64,000 nt of DNA from Aceticella autotrophica (GTDB lineage: Bacteria; Bacillota; Thermoanaerobacteria; Thermoanaerobacterales; Thermoanaerobacteraceae). This document shows, piece after piece, positions 21,745 to 62,845 of the stretch. The number at the start of each line of letters is the position of its first letter. Within the stretch, counting starts at the first letter, position 1. The notes under the pieces were generated by a model. The model searched no databases and was not told where the DNA came from. It saw nothing but the letters and a program-made list of their open reading frames with translations. The DNA lies in the NCBI RefSeq assembly GCF_017357865.1, contig NZ_CP060096.1, positions 682,001 through 746,000 on the forward strand. The letters run 5' to 3'. A program made the position numbers and the translations under genes.

Positions 21745-21750
21745 GTAACC

Positions 21751-21790
21751 AAAACACCTCTTCTAACATAAAATATAGGGGAGGTGTTTT
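21751..21790 (+). terminator. tyrS terminator hairpin that covers the yunB SD
   Basis: Perfect 10-bp inverted repeat AAAACACCTC (21751-21760) / GAGGTGTTTT (21781-21790), 20-base loop, followed by TT. The 3' arm includes most of GGGGAGG, the SD of yunB whose TTG is at 21796. Read-through from tyrS would therefore hide this SD; a transcript starting inside the loop would not. Confidence 0.75.
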
Positions 21791-21795
21791 TTAAA

Positions 21796-22494
21796 TTGAA
21801 GAGGAAAAAATGGGGGCATAGAAGAGATATTAAATTTTATATAAACATAGTTATAATGTTTTTAATTTTTATAGCAATTTATTCTTTTATTGTATATAAA
21901 TTTAAACCAACTGTAATTGCAGTAAGTGATACGGTGGCGAAGGATGTTGCAGTTAGAACCATAGACAGATCCATTAATGAAAAAGTTTTAAAGGGGATAA
22001 AATATCAGGATTTAATCAATGTTAGAACGGATAAAAATGGTAAGATATCAATGCTTCAGGCAAATACAATTGAGATGAACATGCTTGCAACAAAAATAAC
22101 ACAGGAAGTTCAAGACAATCTTAATAATCTTGGTTCTGTATATGTTAAGATACCGCTTGGTACCTTGATATCTTCAGATATATTTGCAAATATCGGACCG
22201 AGGATAAAAGTTGGATTACTTCCAATTGGTGCTGTAACAGTTGATTTTAATTCGGAATTTCAACCAGCCGGTATAAACCAGACCCGTCATATTATATATC
22301 TTCATATCAAAACATATATTCAAATAATTGCACCTCTTGCCTCAGACAAAGTTGAAGTTACTACACATATGCCTGTAACAGATAGTATTATAGTTGGAGA
22401 TGTACCTGGTAGTTATGTTGATGTAAATGGCAACAAATATACTGTTCCGGTTCCAAATGGGGGAAATTCAAATATCAACATCAAAGGAAATTAG
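21796..22494 (+). CDS. yunB: Sporulation protein YunB
   Basis: A 232-residue membrane-anchored protein of the YunB family, made in the mother cell under SigE in B. subtilis. One N-terminal helix (IVIMFLIFIAIYSFIVY, ~19-35) is followed by an extracytoplasmic domain with VGLLPIGAVTVDFNSEFQPA and GINQTRHIIYLHI, the family blocks. TTG 21796 is chosen because GGGGAGG lies 11 bases upstream; GTG 21784 would sit in the SD. The SD is inside a hairpin arm. A loop sequence CATAAAAT (21767-21774) resembles a SigE -10, but no good -35 is present. Confidence 0.87.
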   Translation: MKRKKWGHRRDIKFYINIVIMFLIFIAIYSFIVYKFKPTVIAVSDTVAKDVAVRTIDRSINEKVLKGIKYQDLINVRTDKNGKISMLQANTIEMNMLATKITQEVQDNLNNLGSVYVKIPLGTLISSDIFANIGPRIKVGLLPIGAVTVDFNSEFQPAGINQTRHIIYLHIKTYIQIIAPLASDKVEVTTHMPVTDSIIVGDVPGSYVDVNGNKYTVPVPNGGNSNINIKGN

Positions 22495-51645: not shown

Positions 51646-52752
51646 ATGAATAGAAGATATCCTGTTGACTACAATATATTAATATCTGTGCTTATTCTTG
51701 TATCGATAGGTGTTATAATGGTGTTCAGCGCAAGCTCCGCCAGTGCTTATTATACCTATAATGATTCTTTTTACTTTCTGAAAAGGCAGTTATTATGGTC
51801 AACAATCGGTTTTTTTGCCATGACAATAATGATGAATATTGATTATCATAAACTAAGAAAAATTGTAGGTATATATTTATTTGGTTCTATTTTATTATTG
51901 ATTGCTGTATTAATTCCCGGCATAGGTGTAGAAAGCTACAATGCAACAAGATGGATTGGTGTGGGAAGTTTTACAATTCAGCCTTCTGAATTTGCAAAAT
52001 ATGCGATTATCTTGTATATTGCAAATTATTTTGATAAAAAACCTAATTATGCAAAAAGTTTCAAAAAAGGAGTGCTACCTGTACTTTTTTTGGCAGGTTT
52101 ATTATTCTTCTTGATTATGAAGCAGCCTAATTTCAGTACCGCAGGTACAATTTTTATTATTTCAATAATATTGTTATTTGTTGCGGGTGCAAAAATTTCT
52201 TTTATGGCTACACTATTTGGACTTGGTGGTTCTGCTGCACTTATTGTTGTTGCATCGGTAAAATATATTAGGCAAAGGGTTTTTACATTTTTAAATCCAT
52301 GGCAGGATATACAAAAACATGGGTATCAAATTGTACAGTCATTATACGCACTTGGCTCAGGAGGGCTTTTTGGCGTAGGTTTAGGACGAAGCAGGCAGAA
52401 ATTCATGTATCTTCCAATGCCGCAAAATGATTTTATATTTTCAATAATAGGAGAAGAACTTGGCTTAATTGGAACAGCGACAATACTTTTGTTATTTTTG
52501 TATCTTATTATGAGAGGACTTAGGGTTGCAGCTAAGGCGCCAGATATGTTTGGTTGTCTTATTGCAACAGGAATTACAGGACTTATAGGAGTACAGACAT
52601 TGATAAATGTTGCTGTTGTAACTTCTTCAATGCCTGCTACAGGCGTATCTTTACCCTTTATAAGTTATGGGGGAACATCAACAGTTTTGATGATGGGGGC
52701 AATGGGAGTCTTATTAAATATTTCCCGTTATTCAAATTCAGACAGGAGTTGA
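51646..52752 (+). CDS. spoVE: SEDS glycan polymerase (FtsW/SpoVE family)
   Basis: Polytopic peptidoglycan glycosyltransferase, 368 residues with about ten TM helices. Motifs: VFSASSASAYYTYND, WIGVGSFTIQPSEFAKYA (the catalytic-loop region), GYQIVQSLYALGSGGLFGVG, QNDFIFSIIGEELG and GVSLPFISYGGTS. It works with the class B PBP in this cluster. Division and spore-cortex roles cannot be separated by sequence; the position matches spoVE/ftsW. Confidence 0.93.
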   Translation: MNRRYPVDYNILISVLILVSIGVIMVFSASSASAYYTYNDSFYFLKRQLLWSTIGFFAMTIMMNIDYHKLRKIVGIYLFGSILLLIAVLIPGIGVESYNATRWIGVGSFTIQPSEFAKYAIILYIANYFDKKPNYAKSFKKGVLPVLFLAGLLFFLIMKQPNFSTAGTIFIISIILLFVAGAKISFMATLFGLGGSAALIVVASVKYIRQRVFTFLNPWQDIQKHGYQIVQSLYALGSGGLFGVGLGRSRQKFMYLPMPQNDFIFSIIGEELGLIGTATILLLFLYLIMRGLRVAAKAPDMFGCLIATGITGLIGVQTLINVAVVTSSMPATGVSLPFISYGGTSTVLMMGAMGVLLNISRYSNSDRS

Positions 52753-52757
52753 TTATT

Positions 52758-53852
52758 TTGAAATACTTGTTGACAGGTGGTGGTACAGGTGGACATATAT
52801 ATCCAGCAGTAGCTATTGCTGATGAAATAAAGAGAAATGAACCAGATGCAGAGATTTTGTTTGTTGGAACAAAAAATGGTCTTGAAAGTGAACTTGTTCC
52901 AAAATCCGGCTATGAACTAAAAACAATACGTGTCAAGGGTTTTAAAAGGAAAATTTCAATAGATATATTTAAAACTATAAATACAGCGTTTAAAGGACTT
53001 TTTGATGCAAGGCTTATAATTAATGATTTTAAACCTGATATTGTTATAGGGACAGGTGGTTATGTATGTGGACCTGTTGTAATGATGGCTGTCCTAAAAG
53101 GAATCCCTACCATTATACATGAGCAGAATGCCTTTCCCGGCATTACAAACAGAATACTTTCAGGATTTGTAAATAAGGTTGCTGTGGCATTTGAAGAGTC
53201 AAAAAAATATTTTCTATGCAAAAGGAAAATAGTGGTAACCGGCAACCCCATTAGGACTGAAGTATTGAGTGATAATAAAACAGCATCATTAAAGAAACTA
53301 AGTTTTAAAAATAACATACCCTTAGTTGTATCCGTCGGTGGAAGCAGAGGTGCCGAAAAGATAAACGAAAGCATGGTAGATTTTATTAAGTATATTGATG
53401 AAAACATTCAAGTTCTTATAATTACGGGCAGCAAGCAATATGATACAGTTTTAAAAAAAATTAATAGCATAAATGCAGATATTAAAAAAAATGTAAAAGT
53501 TATTCCTTATTGCTACAATATGAAGGATGTTTATGCAGCAGCTGATTTAATTATTTGTCGTGCCGGTGCTATTACACTGGCAGAATTAACAGCAACAGGG
53601 ACTCCCTCGATACTAATTCCATCTCCTAATGTGACACATAATCATCAGGAATATAACGCAAAAGTACTTGTAAGCAATAAAGCTGCGGAAATGATAATTG
53701 AGAGGGACTTAACAGGAAAATTATTATTTGAAAAGGTTAATAATTTATTAAAAAATCCAATCATGTTAGAAAGGATGAAAAGCAATGCAAAAAAAATGGC
53801 AAAAATCGATGCCGTAAAAATAATATACGGATATATCAAGAAGCTTGTATAG
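52758..53852 (+). CDS. murG: Lipid II synthase MurG (GlcNAc transferase)
   Basis: Peripheral membrane GT28 enzyme adding GlcNAc to lipid I. 364 residues: LTGGGTGGHIYPAVAIADEI (glycine-rich loop), GTGGYVCGPVVMMAVLKGIP, IHEQNAFPGITNRIL, VVSVGGSRGAEKINES, and CRAGAITLAELTATGTPSI. The frame runs open further upstream, but TTG 52758 has AGGAG (52744-52748) 9 bases before it and overlaps only the spoVE end region. Completes lipid II for MraY product. Confidence 0.94.
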   Translation: MKYLLTGGGTGGHIYPAVAIADEIKRNEPDAEILFVGTKNGLESELVPKSGYELKTIRVKGFKRKISIDIFKTINTAFKGLFDARLIINDFKPDIVIGTGGYVCGPVVMMAVLKGIPTIIHEQNAFPGITNRILSGFVNKVAVAFEESKKYFLCKRKIVVTGNPIRTEVLSDNKTASLKKLSFKNNIPLVVSVGGSRGAEKINESMVDFIKYIDENIQVLIITGSKQYDTVLKKINSINADIKKNVKVIPYCYNMKDVYAAADLIICRAGAITLAELTATGTPSILIPSPNVTHNHQEYNAKVLVSNKAAEMIIERDLTGKLLFEKVNNLLKNPIMLERMKSNAKKMAKIDAVKIIYGYIKKLV

Positions 53853-53929
53853 TCCCAAGGTAACCTCCCGATTGCATCATGCATAATATAAAGTGTACAT
53901 CAGATTAACAGATTGCAGGGGGTGATATA

Positions 53930-55185
53930 ATGGGGCGAAGTTTAAAATAGTTGGAGAGAATAAATTAAAAGGTGAGTTAAGAATAAAAGGTGCTAAAAAT
54001 TCTGTATTGCCGATACTTGCAGCGACTTTGTTAAATAAGGGCATTAGTATTTTACATGATTGTCCTGCATTAAAAGATGTATATTCTATGATAGAGATAT
54101 TAAAACATCTTGGATGTACCGTAAAATTTATCGGAAGTGATATAATAGTAGATTCCAGCGGTATAATTGATAATCACATCCCTGACGAATTAATGCGAAC
54201 TATGAGGTCCTCTATATTTTTGATGGGAGCGCTTGTATCCAGAAATAATACTGCTGTAATTAGTTTTCCCGGTGGTTGTGATATTGGGCATAGGCCTATC
54301 GATTTACATCTTAAAAGTTTAAGAAAACTTTCCATAATGATAAAAGAATCTTATGGTTATATAAATTGCGAAAGCAAAAGAATAAAAGGCTGTGATATAC
54401 ATCTTGATATACCAAGTGTTGGAGCGACAGAAAATATTATGCTTGCATCTGTAATGGCAGATGGAATTACAACAATAGGCAATGCGGCGAAAGAACCTGA
54501 AATAGAAGACCTTCAAAAATTTTTAAACAGCATGGGGGCAAAGGTTAGCGGCGCCGGTTCAAATACAATAGTCATAGAGGGTGTTAAAAGCCTCCACGAT
54601 GTAGAATATAAGATAATACCAGACAGAATTGTGGCAGGGACTTATCTTATAGCTGCTGCAATGACATCAAGTGAAATTGTTCTTACAAATGTAATAAAAA
54701 ATCATTTAGAATCTTTAATATCAAAATTAAATGAAAGCGGATTTGCAATTAAAACTGGGAATGATTATATAAAACTATTTTCGAATAAAAGACCAAAAGC
54801 GATTGATATGATTATAACACTTCCATATCCCGGTTTTCCAACTGATTTACAAGCACAGATGACTTCTTTGTTGTCAATTGCGGAGGGGACATCTATAGTG
54901 ACAGAAACTATTTTTGATAACAGATTTAAATATACAGAGGAATTGGTTAGAATGGGTGCGGATATAAAAGTAGATGGGCGTATAGCAGTAATAAAAGGAG
55001 TGAAAAATCTAACCGGCACTTCTGTTGTTGCAAGAGACTTACGAGGGGGAGCGGCTCTGGTGATAGCGGGGCTCGGGGCATCAGGCATAACAATTGTTGA
55101 AGATATAGAACATATAAATAGAGGTTATGAAAATTTTGATGAAAATCTAAGGAGTATTGGCGCAAACATTGAAAAAATGATGTAA
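53930..55185 (+). CDS. murA: UDP-GlcNAc 1-carboxyvinyltransferase MurA, apparent 5' frameshift
   Basis: First committed step of peptidoglycan synthesis, transferring enolpyruvate from PEP. The frame with stop 55183-55185 encodes FKIVGENKLKGELRIKGAKN (Lys/Asn of the active site), SFPGGCDIGHRPIDLHL (catalytic Cys) and the rest of a full MurA. However, the only good start, ATG 53930 behind GGGGGTGATATA, is in another frame and stops at 53951; the MurA frame has TGA at 53923 and no ATG/GTG/TTG before TTG 54007. One extra G in the GGGG run (53932-53935) would give M-G-A-K-F-K-I-V. It could be a base-call error, a real mutation or recoding. A TTG 54007 start would lose the KGAKN site. Confidence 0.85.
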
Positions 55186-55243
55186 AACGGCATTTGCTGT
55201 TTTACATATAAATCAAAAATGTACAAGCATGGGGTGCTTAAAG

Positions 55244-55960
55244 ATGGAAAATAATACACAGGCAAGAAAAAAAAGATTCATAATAATATTGTCAATAATT
55301 ATAATATTGTTTCTGATATATTTTATTATGTTTCAATCACCTATATTTAAATTAAAGAATATTGAAGTAGACGGAAATAAAAATTTGTCCTATAATGATA
55401 TCATAAGCTTGACAGGGATTTATAAAGGTATGTATATTTTTAAAATAAATTCATTTGAAATAAAAAAGAGGCTATTATTAAATTCTTTTATTAAGGATGC
55501 CGATATAGAAATAAAGTATCCATCATCAATTATAATTAAAGTGGAGGAACGAAAACTTGTAGCACAGATACCATATAACACAAATTATATTTATATTGAT
55601 GATGAGGGTGTAGCGGTTAAAGAGAACGAATATGACAGTAAATTGCCGATAATTAATGGGATTAAAATAAAAAAATATGAAATTGGCAAGAAAATAGATG
55701 GCATTTTTGACAATAATGATATGGCAAAACTTTTAAAAATTATATATAATAAAGATATATATAAAAACATAACCGTAATAGATAAAAACAACTTAATGAT
55801 AAAAACAAAAACAGGGATTAATATAGCTTTTAATAATGTTAATGACGTTGCATATTCAATTAAATTTTCTGAACTTATTTTAAATGACTTAGAGAAAAAA
55901 GGATATGATAAAGGTACTATTCAAATCAGCAAAAACAATAACCCAGTTTTTTTGCCATAA
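55244..55960 (+). CDS. divIB: Cell division protein DivIB/FtsQ
   Basis: A 238-residue bitopic divisome protein: short basic head, TM helix (FIIILSIIIILFLIYFIMF, ~13-31), POTRA domain (IFKLKNIEVDGNKNLSYNDI), then the beta domain with LPIINGIKI. ATG 55244 follows GGGGTG by 7 bases; an ATG at 55229 would leave that SD inside the gene. It lies where Firmicutes carry divIB. Confidence 0.9.
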   Translation: MENNTQARKKRFIIILSIIIILFLIYFIMFQSPIFKLKNIEVDGNKNLSYNDIISLTGIYKGMYIFKINSFEIKKRLLLNSFIKDADIEIKYPSSIIIKVEERKLVAQIPYNTNYIYIDDEGVAVKENEYDSKLPIINGIKIKKYEIGKKIDGIFDNNDMAKLLKIIYNKDIYKNITVIDKNNLMIKTKTGINIAFNNVNDVAYSIKFSELILNDLEKKGYDKGTIQISKNNNPVFLP

Positions 55961-55977
55961 GAAATGGAGGAATCAAT

Positions 55978-56700
55978 TTGAAAAAAAATGTGTATATATC
56001 AATTGCTTTTGTGTGTATTGTACTGGGTATAATGTTATCTATAGAGTTTAAAACGATAAAAAACGGTGGGACAGTTGCATTACAAAGAGCAGAAGATTTA
56101 ACAAATAAGTTAAAAGAGGTTCAATCAGAAAGGGATGTATTAAAGAAACAATTAGCTGACCTTGAAAATAAGATTAATACTTATGAAGAATCGGCATCAA
56201 AGACAAGCGCTATAACAAAATCATTAAAAGATGACCTTATTAAATATAAGGAATTAGCTGGATTAATAGATGTACAGGGACCAGGTGTTATCGTTACTAT
56301 AAATGATAGTCAAAAGGCGGTGCAGCCAGGCGGTAATGCAAATCCATTTCTTGTTCATGACGAAGATTTATTAAAAGTAGTAAACGAGTTGCGCTCAGCA
56401 GGCGCTGAGGCTATCTCTTTGAATGATGAAAGGCTTATTTCAACTTCTGAAATTAGATGTGTTGGACCGACTGTTAATGTAAATTCATCCAGATTTGCTG
56501 CTCCTTATGTAATAAGAGCGATTGGCAGTCCCGAGACATTAGAGGCAGCCTTGAAGTTAAAAGGAGGAGTTGTTGATACACTATCGAATTGGGGAATTGA
56601 GGTAAATATAAAAAAATCCAATAATATTTTAGTAAAAAAATTCAATGGGGTTATTTCATTCAAATATGCCAAACCAATATATGAAGGAGAGAATAAATGA
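55978..56700 (+). CDS. DUF881 family protein (YlxW-like)
   Basis: A 240-residue membrane-anchored protein: TM helix (~6-22), a coiled coil (~33-90), then the DUF881 domain with DVQGPGVIVTINDS, LLKVVNELRSAGAEAISLND, EIRCVGPTVNVN and APYVIRAIGSPETLEAAL. TTG 55978 after GGAGG. B. subtilis has two such genes (ylxW, ylxX) here; only one is present. Function unknown, tied to division by position. Confidence 0.88.
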   Translation: MKKNVYISIAFVCIVLGIMLSIEFKTIKNGGTVALQRAEDLTNKLKEVQSERDVLKKQLADLENKINTYEESASKTSAITKSLKDDLIKYKELAGLIDVQGPGVIVTINDSQKAVQPGGNANPFLVHDEDLLKVVNELRSAGAEAISLNDERLISTSEIRCVGPTVNVNSSRFAAPYVIRAIGSPETLEAALKLKGGVVDTLSNWGIEVNIKKSNNILVKKFNGVISFKYAKPIYEGENK

Positions 56701-62200: not shown

Positions 62201-62845
62201 ATGGAATTGTTAACTATAAGCAAAGCAGCAAAGAAAATAGGTGTCCATCCCAACAGCCTGCGCAACTGGGAAAAGCAAGGTTTAATCAAGCCTGTCCGTT
62301 TGCCAAGTGGTCAGCGCCGATACTCCATAGACGAACTCAATAAGCTATTGCAGTCCGGACAGATAAACACTGGGCAGGAAGACGTTGTTTTATATGCCCG
62401 GGTATCCACCAAAAAGCAGGCGGATGCCGGCAATTTAAACAGACAATTGGAAAGACTGAGGCAATATGCTAATGAATCAAATTACCATGTTGTTGCCGAG
62501 TTCACCGACATAGCCAGCGGCTTAAATCAGAAGCGCCGTGGATTGACAAATGTATTTAAGCTGGCTGAACGTGGTGAATACAAGAAACTTATAATCGAAT
62601 ATCCCGATCGACTGACACGATTTGGGTATTCATACATCGAACGGCATTTGCATTATTGTGGTGTAGAGGTAATCGCCACATCTGAGAAAGAATTAGAAGA
62701 CGCACAATCCGAGCTGGTCAGGGACTTATTGGCGATAATCACTTCTTTTTCAGCTAAGCTGTATGGCACCAGAGGAGGTAAAAAGATAAGGCAGGGTTTC
62801 CGGGAACTGATAACGGAGGTGAAGTCAGATGAAGAAAAAGAATAA
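62201..62845 (+). CDS. tnpA: IS607-family TnpA serine recombinase
   Basis: A 214-residue transposase. Unlike most serine recombinases the DNA-binding part is N-terminal: MerR-type HTH (ISKAAKKIGVHPNSLRNWEK, ~5-25; LPSGQRRYSIDELNKLL). The catalytic domain has VLYARVSTKKQADAGNLNRQ with the Ser at ~67 and EYPDRLTRFGYSYIERHL. The reading frame is intact. It cuts out and inserts the element through a circular intermediate. ATG 62201 has no SD, so translation may be leaderless. It overlaps tnpB by 17 bases. Confidence 0.93.
   Translation: MELLTISKAAKKIGVHPNSLRNWEKQGLIKPVRLPSGQRRYSIDELNKLLQSGQINTGQEDVVLYARVSTKKQADAGNLNRQLERLRQYANESNYHVVAEFTDIASGLNQKRRGLTNVFKLAERGEYKKLIIEYPDRLTRFGYSYIERHLHYCGVEVIATSEKELEDAQSELVRDLLAIITSFSAKLYGTRGGKKIRQGFRELITEVKSDEEKE

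Follow-up and report, generated by a model that had tools for sequence, protein, structure and literature searches.

A third, sporulation-type murA in the dcw cluster of Thermoanaerobacteraceae appears to have lost its start codon in an Aceticella strain

For B. subtilis sigG, a hairpin has been proposed to block translation of read-through RNA, and this hairpin cannot form in RNA made from the gene's own promoter (PMC5942855, legend to Fig. 1). MurAB, a MurA paralog of B. anthracis, matters for sporulation (PMC12700454). Promoters of the sigma-K type carry AC at -35 and a CATA-type -10, the latter being common to sigma-E (PMC3789822), and -1 ribosomal frameshifting in bacteria has been reviewed (PMC5009743). 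Here we describe a murA gene that touches on each of these. It lies in the dcw cluster of the thermophilic bacterium Aceticella autotrophica, within a stretch of 64,000 nucleotides that we refer to as the window. We hold, with moderate confidence, that this gene is a third, sporulation-type MurA of the Thermoanaerobacteraceae whose start was lost in the Aceticella strain. The features on which the argument turns are as follows.

52758 to 53852, plus strand: murG, the 5' neighbour in the dcw cluster, with a probable TTG start (open frame; glycosyltransferase motif GGTGGH in the translation)
53860 to 53890, plus strand: promoter-like element GTAAC-N17-CATAATATA of the sigma-K/sigma-E mother-cell type (consensus match, conserved in relatives)
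53863 to 53868, plus strand: putative anti-SD (Shine-Dalgarno) arm ACCTCC, overlapping both the -35 and the spacer of that element, pairing with GGGGGT at 53918-53923 in read-through RNA
53918 to 53925, plus strand: Shine-Dalgarno sequence GGGGGTGA of murA (from the sequence; aligned with AGGAGGTGA of the sister genus)
53930 to 53950, plus strand: six-codon leader ORF MGRSLK-stop, out of frame with murA (Thermoanaerobacterium equivalent, ATG GGA TGA)
53935 to 53937, plus strand: GCG aligned with the Thermoanaerobacterium murA start ATG
53938 to 55185, plus strand: MurA coding body without a usable start codon (KGAKN, GGCDIGHRP and FPTDLQ intact; purifying selection)
53941 to 53947, plus strand: T TTA AAA heptamer immediately 5' of TAG, where a -1 slip enters the MurA frame

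Inspection of the sequence places an ATG at 53930-53932, 7 bases after the GGGGG (53918-53922) of the Shine-Dalgarno sequence. The frame that it opens reads ATG GGG CGA AGT TTA AAA TAG and ends at 53948-53950, just as the first-pass annotation had described. The MurA frame is closed by TGA at 53923-53925 and open from 53926 to 55185; past the TGA, it runs TAT AAT GGG GCG AAG TTT AAA ATA GTT. Its first ATG, GTG or TTG is the TTG at 54007, and the KGAKN motif lies upstream of that codon, so that the earlier reading was right here too: no usable start codon precedes KGAKN. That annotation had also proposed that one extra G would join the ATG to the MurA frame. The G run at 53932-53935 does consist of four Gs, and the arithmetic is correct. 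The out-of-frame start of murA is real, and is neither chance nor misreading.

Two points speak for an error of sequencing or assembly, with an ordinary start codon in the actual strain: a single base change of either kind would yield a normal gene, and the MurA body is without decay. However, the genome of strain 3443-3Ac (CP060096) was built from Illumina (1,648 Mb) and Nanopore data and polished with Pilon (PMC10213532). The assembly is one contig of 2,267,618 bases, which puts Illumina depth at ~700x. A survey of 400 kb found 0 frameshifts in 77 conserved ORFs totalling some 25,000 amino acids; its in-hit stops arose from query frames running stop to stop and from antisense frames, and we did not score them as lesions. 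We rejected a noisy assembly on these grounds, and consider an error in the four-base G homopolymer, as suggested in the first-pass annotation, or a single miscalled base to be unlikely. The published genome description lists 69 pseudogenes (PMC10213532).

We compared the start region with that of relatives; the comparison rests on one genome for the genus Aceticella. In Thermoanaerobacterium (9/9 sampled genomes and three named-collection loci), the arrangement is AGGAGGTGAT-NN(N)-ATG GGA TGA-A: after the SD-placed ATG, which is not in frame with murA, come a single Gly codon and then a stop, and murA itself starts at a second ATG that overlaps this mini-ORF. Thermoanaerobacter and Caldanaerobacter have an in-frame ATG GGG AAA TTT AAA (or TTC AAR), which is two bases shorter. 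In an alignment of 15 loci, the spacing from ATG to MurA body in the window (ATGGGATGAAA) has the same length as in Thermoanaerobacterium (ATGGGGCGAAG), whereas that of Thermoanaerobacter (ATGGGGAAA) is two bases shorter, and the position of the Thermoanaerobacterium murA ATG is occupied in the window by the GCG at 53935-53937. The window murA is 81% identical to that of Thermoanaerobacterium and 72% to that of Thermoanaerobacter, and Aceticella is closer to Thermoanaerobacterium both by this measure and in most dcw genes. Because the window shares the Thermoanaerobacterium length, carries GCG at its murA ATG and has the nearer kinship, the parsimonious history is a shared two-base change followed by loss of the start in Aceticella. 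The best explanation from these alignments is that the offset of the SD-placed ATG was inherited, and that the second, overlapping start is what Aceticella lost. A two-base change in the common ancestor of Aceticella and Thermoanaerobacterium would have put the SD-placed ATG and murA in different frames; murA would then have begun from a second start that shared bases with the stop codon of a two-codon mini-ORF, as it does in Thermoanaerobacterium today. With GCG in place of that second start, ribosomes from 53930 would stop after six codons and make little or no MurA.

The alternative history is a real deletion: an ancestor whose only start was an in-frame ATG would have lost one base of the G run that follows ATG 53930, leaving the gene silent. 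One added base does join the ATG to the MurA frame, and the equivalent ATG starts in frame in the outgroups. This history needs three events, however (the two-base change in Thermoanaerobacterium and, in Aceticella, an independent insertion of three bases plus the loss of one base); a shared two-base change with loss of the second start needs two, and we regard the deletion as unlikely. Nor was a missing G borne out as the cause, given that the ATG-to-body spacing is the same in all Thermoanaerobacterium. The first-pass annotation had expected relatives to show either five Gs (error or mutation) or four (recoding), and neither outcome was seen. The tempting repair of adding a G would then be wrong: a misaligned ATG is normal for the clade, and it is the overlapping second start that was truly lost. 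In Thermoanaerobacterium, the two-codon start-stop ORF (ATG GGA TGA; for example L087:1485-1525) is kept throughout, has the best SD spacing and overlaps the murA ATG. Coupling or limiting of murA initiation is a possible role for it there.

The MurA body itself is intact. It matches TIGR01072 over its full length (524.8 bits, cut-off 392.7, profile positions 3-416 of 416), and the catalytic Lys/Asn of KGAKN, the Cys loop GGC..G.RP and the FPTD motif all align with solved MurA structures. Measured against Thermoanaerobacter, dN is 0.203 both in the window and in Thermoanaerobacterium, which shows no relaxed selection in the body; synonymous sites are saturated in this comparison, and the dN/dS ratio was therefore omitted. 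With no stop or frameshift in the body and dN not raised, we rejected a long-decayed pseudogene. Since the body is as conserved as in relatives, either the start was lost very recently or the protein is translated by an unusual route, and this is the point that stands against our best explanation. The first-pass annotation had raised the possibility of another murA in the genome, and two full-length MurA paralogs with GTG starts were found (G000 1891498-1892703 and 1935085-1936323), in addition to aroA. Three MurA genes are present in every Thermoanaerobacteraceae genome, the exception being one fragmented assembly in which the third copy is partial. Loss of the dcw start would be tolerated because two complete paralogs remain. 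Taken together, the evidence points to a start loss that is real and probably recent, in a spare murA of sporulation type. At the other end of the gene, the murA stop codon lies within an inverted repeat, TGTAAAACGGC...GCTGTTTTACA (55180-55212), with no T run after it, and close copies are found at the murA end in Thermoanaerobacterium and Thermoanaerobacter.

An unusual route of translation could be recoding. The heptamer T TTA AAA (53941-53947) fits X XXY YYZ, adjoins the TAG and leads exactly into the MurA frame; a -1 slip there would give MGRSLK-IVGENKLKGE..., and a slip on GGGG would work too. Ribosomes from ATG 53930 that slip at either site would make a low level of full MurA, with recoding acting as a brake, and purifying selection on the body would fit such a product. 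Among 234 artificially shifted starts of this AT-rich genome, 9% met any such heptamer before a stop and 1.7% met one directly at the stop. Against slippage, TTTAAAA encodes conserved Phe-Lys codons and is read in the normal frame in Thermoanaerobacter, so that selection for a heptamer is not required. No stimulatory structure is predicted downstream of it (MFE -7.5, against -11.75 for shuffles; z +1.7), and the sister genus relies on a second ATG. The heptamer is not kept as a shift site in relatives, being absent in Thermoanaerobacterium and in the normal frame in Thermoanaerobacter (with one Aceticella genome compared). Like known bacterial -1 frameshifting sites (PMC5009743), dcw murA has an X XXY YYZ heptamer in the initiating frame and two frames that can be rejoined; unlike them, it has neither a predicted stimulator nor conservation, and its heptamer comes from ordinary codons. 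For the slippage-based control put forward in the first-pass annotation, the one supporting feature is the heptamer before the TAG, and its occurrence is compatible with chance. We give such slippage a low probability.

Reinitiation is a further route, in which ribosomes terminate on TAG 53948 after MGRSLK and start again on the near-cognate AUA (53947) that overlaps it, making a MurA with a slightly shorter N-terminus. The overlap (AUAG) resembles the ATGA overlap of Thermoanaerobacterium murA, but AUA is a very weak start codon, and the product would be missing part of the first strand; we consider this highly improbable. A broader proposal is that MurA is made only by recoding in the first seven codons (slippage by -1 at T TTA AAA TAG, or reinitiation at AUA), that the two-codon start-stop ORF plays the matching role in the sister genus, and that a short decoy ORF in a sporulation-gated leader throttles a dedicated MurA. 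This proposal is also improbable in our estimation, and recoding at dcw murA is a minor possibility. Should MurA nevertheless be produced without a start codon, the locus would clearly exemplify recoding near the start of a gene for wall synthesis.

Our preferred reading, loss of the start in a sporulation-type gene, draws its second half from the leader between murG and murA. GTAAC-N17-CATA was present there in 22/22 dcw-murA loci of Thermoanaerobacteraceae and family f2, with the pattern GTAAC-N17-CATAnnnT; across the 15 loci of the alignment, TAAC and CATAnTAT do not vary, but the spacer does. The element matches the sigma-K/sigma-E consensus and is, by its sequence, promoter-like of the mother-cell sporulation type. 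In 1.6 Mb of the window genome, AC-N16/17-CATAnnnTA was found upstream of 11 of the 1029 SD-bearing genes, versus 0-1 for control patterns at one spacing, and the genes include yabG, a cwlD-like amidase gene and phoH. The strict form, GTAAC-N17-CATAnnnTR, was not enriched over control genome-wide in most of the six relatives searched. A known riboswitch or Rfam leader upstream of murA was rejected, as 4227 Rfam models gave no match to 52000-56000 at E up to 5. Elsewhere in the window (21745-21800), GTAAC-N17-CATAAAATA recurs 5' of a yqfF/pgpH-like (7TM-HD) gene, where an arm (ACACCTC) matches the complement of the SD GGGGAGGTG. All six relatives searched have that element with minor differences, and predicted folding raises SD access from 0.00 to 0.81 without the arm.

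The murA element is flanked by complementary arms. Predicted folding gives the window SD an unpaired probability of 0.05 in the long (read-through) RNA and 0.94 in a short RNA starting after CATAnnnT, a gain matched by only 0.9% of 222 SD genes. Across 19 distinct sequences from 22 loci, the SD or ATG is nearly always paired in the folded read-through RNA and mostly freer in the short one. The upstream arm is complementary to the SD in Thermoanaerobacterium, family f2 and the window, and to the start codon in Thermoanaerobacter; arm sequences differ between the clades, with complementarity kept. Tests of arm complementarity gave p 0.000-0.007 in Thermoanaerobacterium, mostly 0.000-0.007 in Thermoanaerobacter, and 0.003 and 0.033 in family f2; locus L096 was parsed at a second TGTAAC, and its p value is not meaningful. 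The window arm alone was no better than shuffles (p 0.28; whole-fold z -0.18), and folds of the window and Thermoanaerobacter, taken singly, are not unusual against shuffles. We also rejected a genome-wide habit of placing mother-cell promoters in SD hairpins, because hidden SDs are no commoner in CATAnnnTA genes than for control motifs. In another locus, a beta-propeller gene just past a tRNA (L164:6130-7143) has a hairpin, CCCCCTGCATA...TATGCGGGGGG, over its SD, with CATATTATA between the arms.

The predicted arrangement is that of B. subtilis sigG as given in the Fig. 1 legend of PMC5942855: complementary arms flank a sporulation promoter inside an operon, and only read-through RNA would form the hairpin that masks the ribosome-binding site. 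By prediction, the arms of the murA leader flank the -10 and hide the SD or start only in the longer RNA, with the weakest single-sequence tests in the window and Thermoanaerobacter. In contrast to sigG as that legend presents it, the gene is murA, the promoter is of mother-cell (sigma-E/K) type, the hosts are Thermoanaerobacteraceae and family f2, and the murA case is a prediction. The SD or start codon would thus be hidden in murG read-through mRNA by arms on either side of a mother-cell-type promoter, and the hairpin would be unable to form in mRNA from that internal promoter. By analogy with sigG, read-through RNA of vegetative cells would yield no MurA from the dcw copy, whose translation would depend on transcripts from the mother-cell promoter during sporulation.

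The sigK, sigE, sigG and spoIIGA frames are open in the window genome, and for strain 3443-3Ac endospores have been reported in at most 1-2% of cells at 10 days (PMC10213532); we therefore rejected loss of sporulation in the strain. Directly 3' of sigG lies an IS607-type serine recombinase (62201-62845; MerR-like N-terminus plus resolvase motif), and many IS elements are described in this genome (PMC10213532). If dcw murA is limited to sporulation, losing its start would cost little in growth; a contribution of this loss to the low spore yield is speculative. Like MurAB of B. anthracis (PMC12700454), it is proposed as an additional MurA important for sporulation; unlike MurAB, it is a third copy within the dcw cluster, and in the window strain its start codon is gone. 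This third murA is preceded in the Thermoanaerobacteraceae by a conserved leader, unannotated and putatively regulatory, and the idea of a sporulation-dedicated MurA can be pursued in the tractable relatives T. saccharolyticum and T. kivui. The leader suggests that the first step of wall synthesis has a sporulation-dedicated enzyme in the Thermoanaerobacteraceae.
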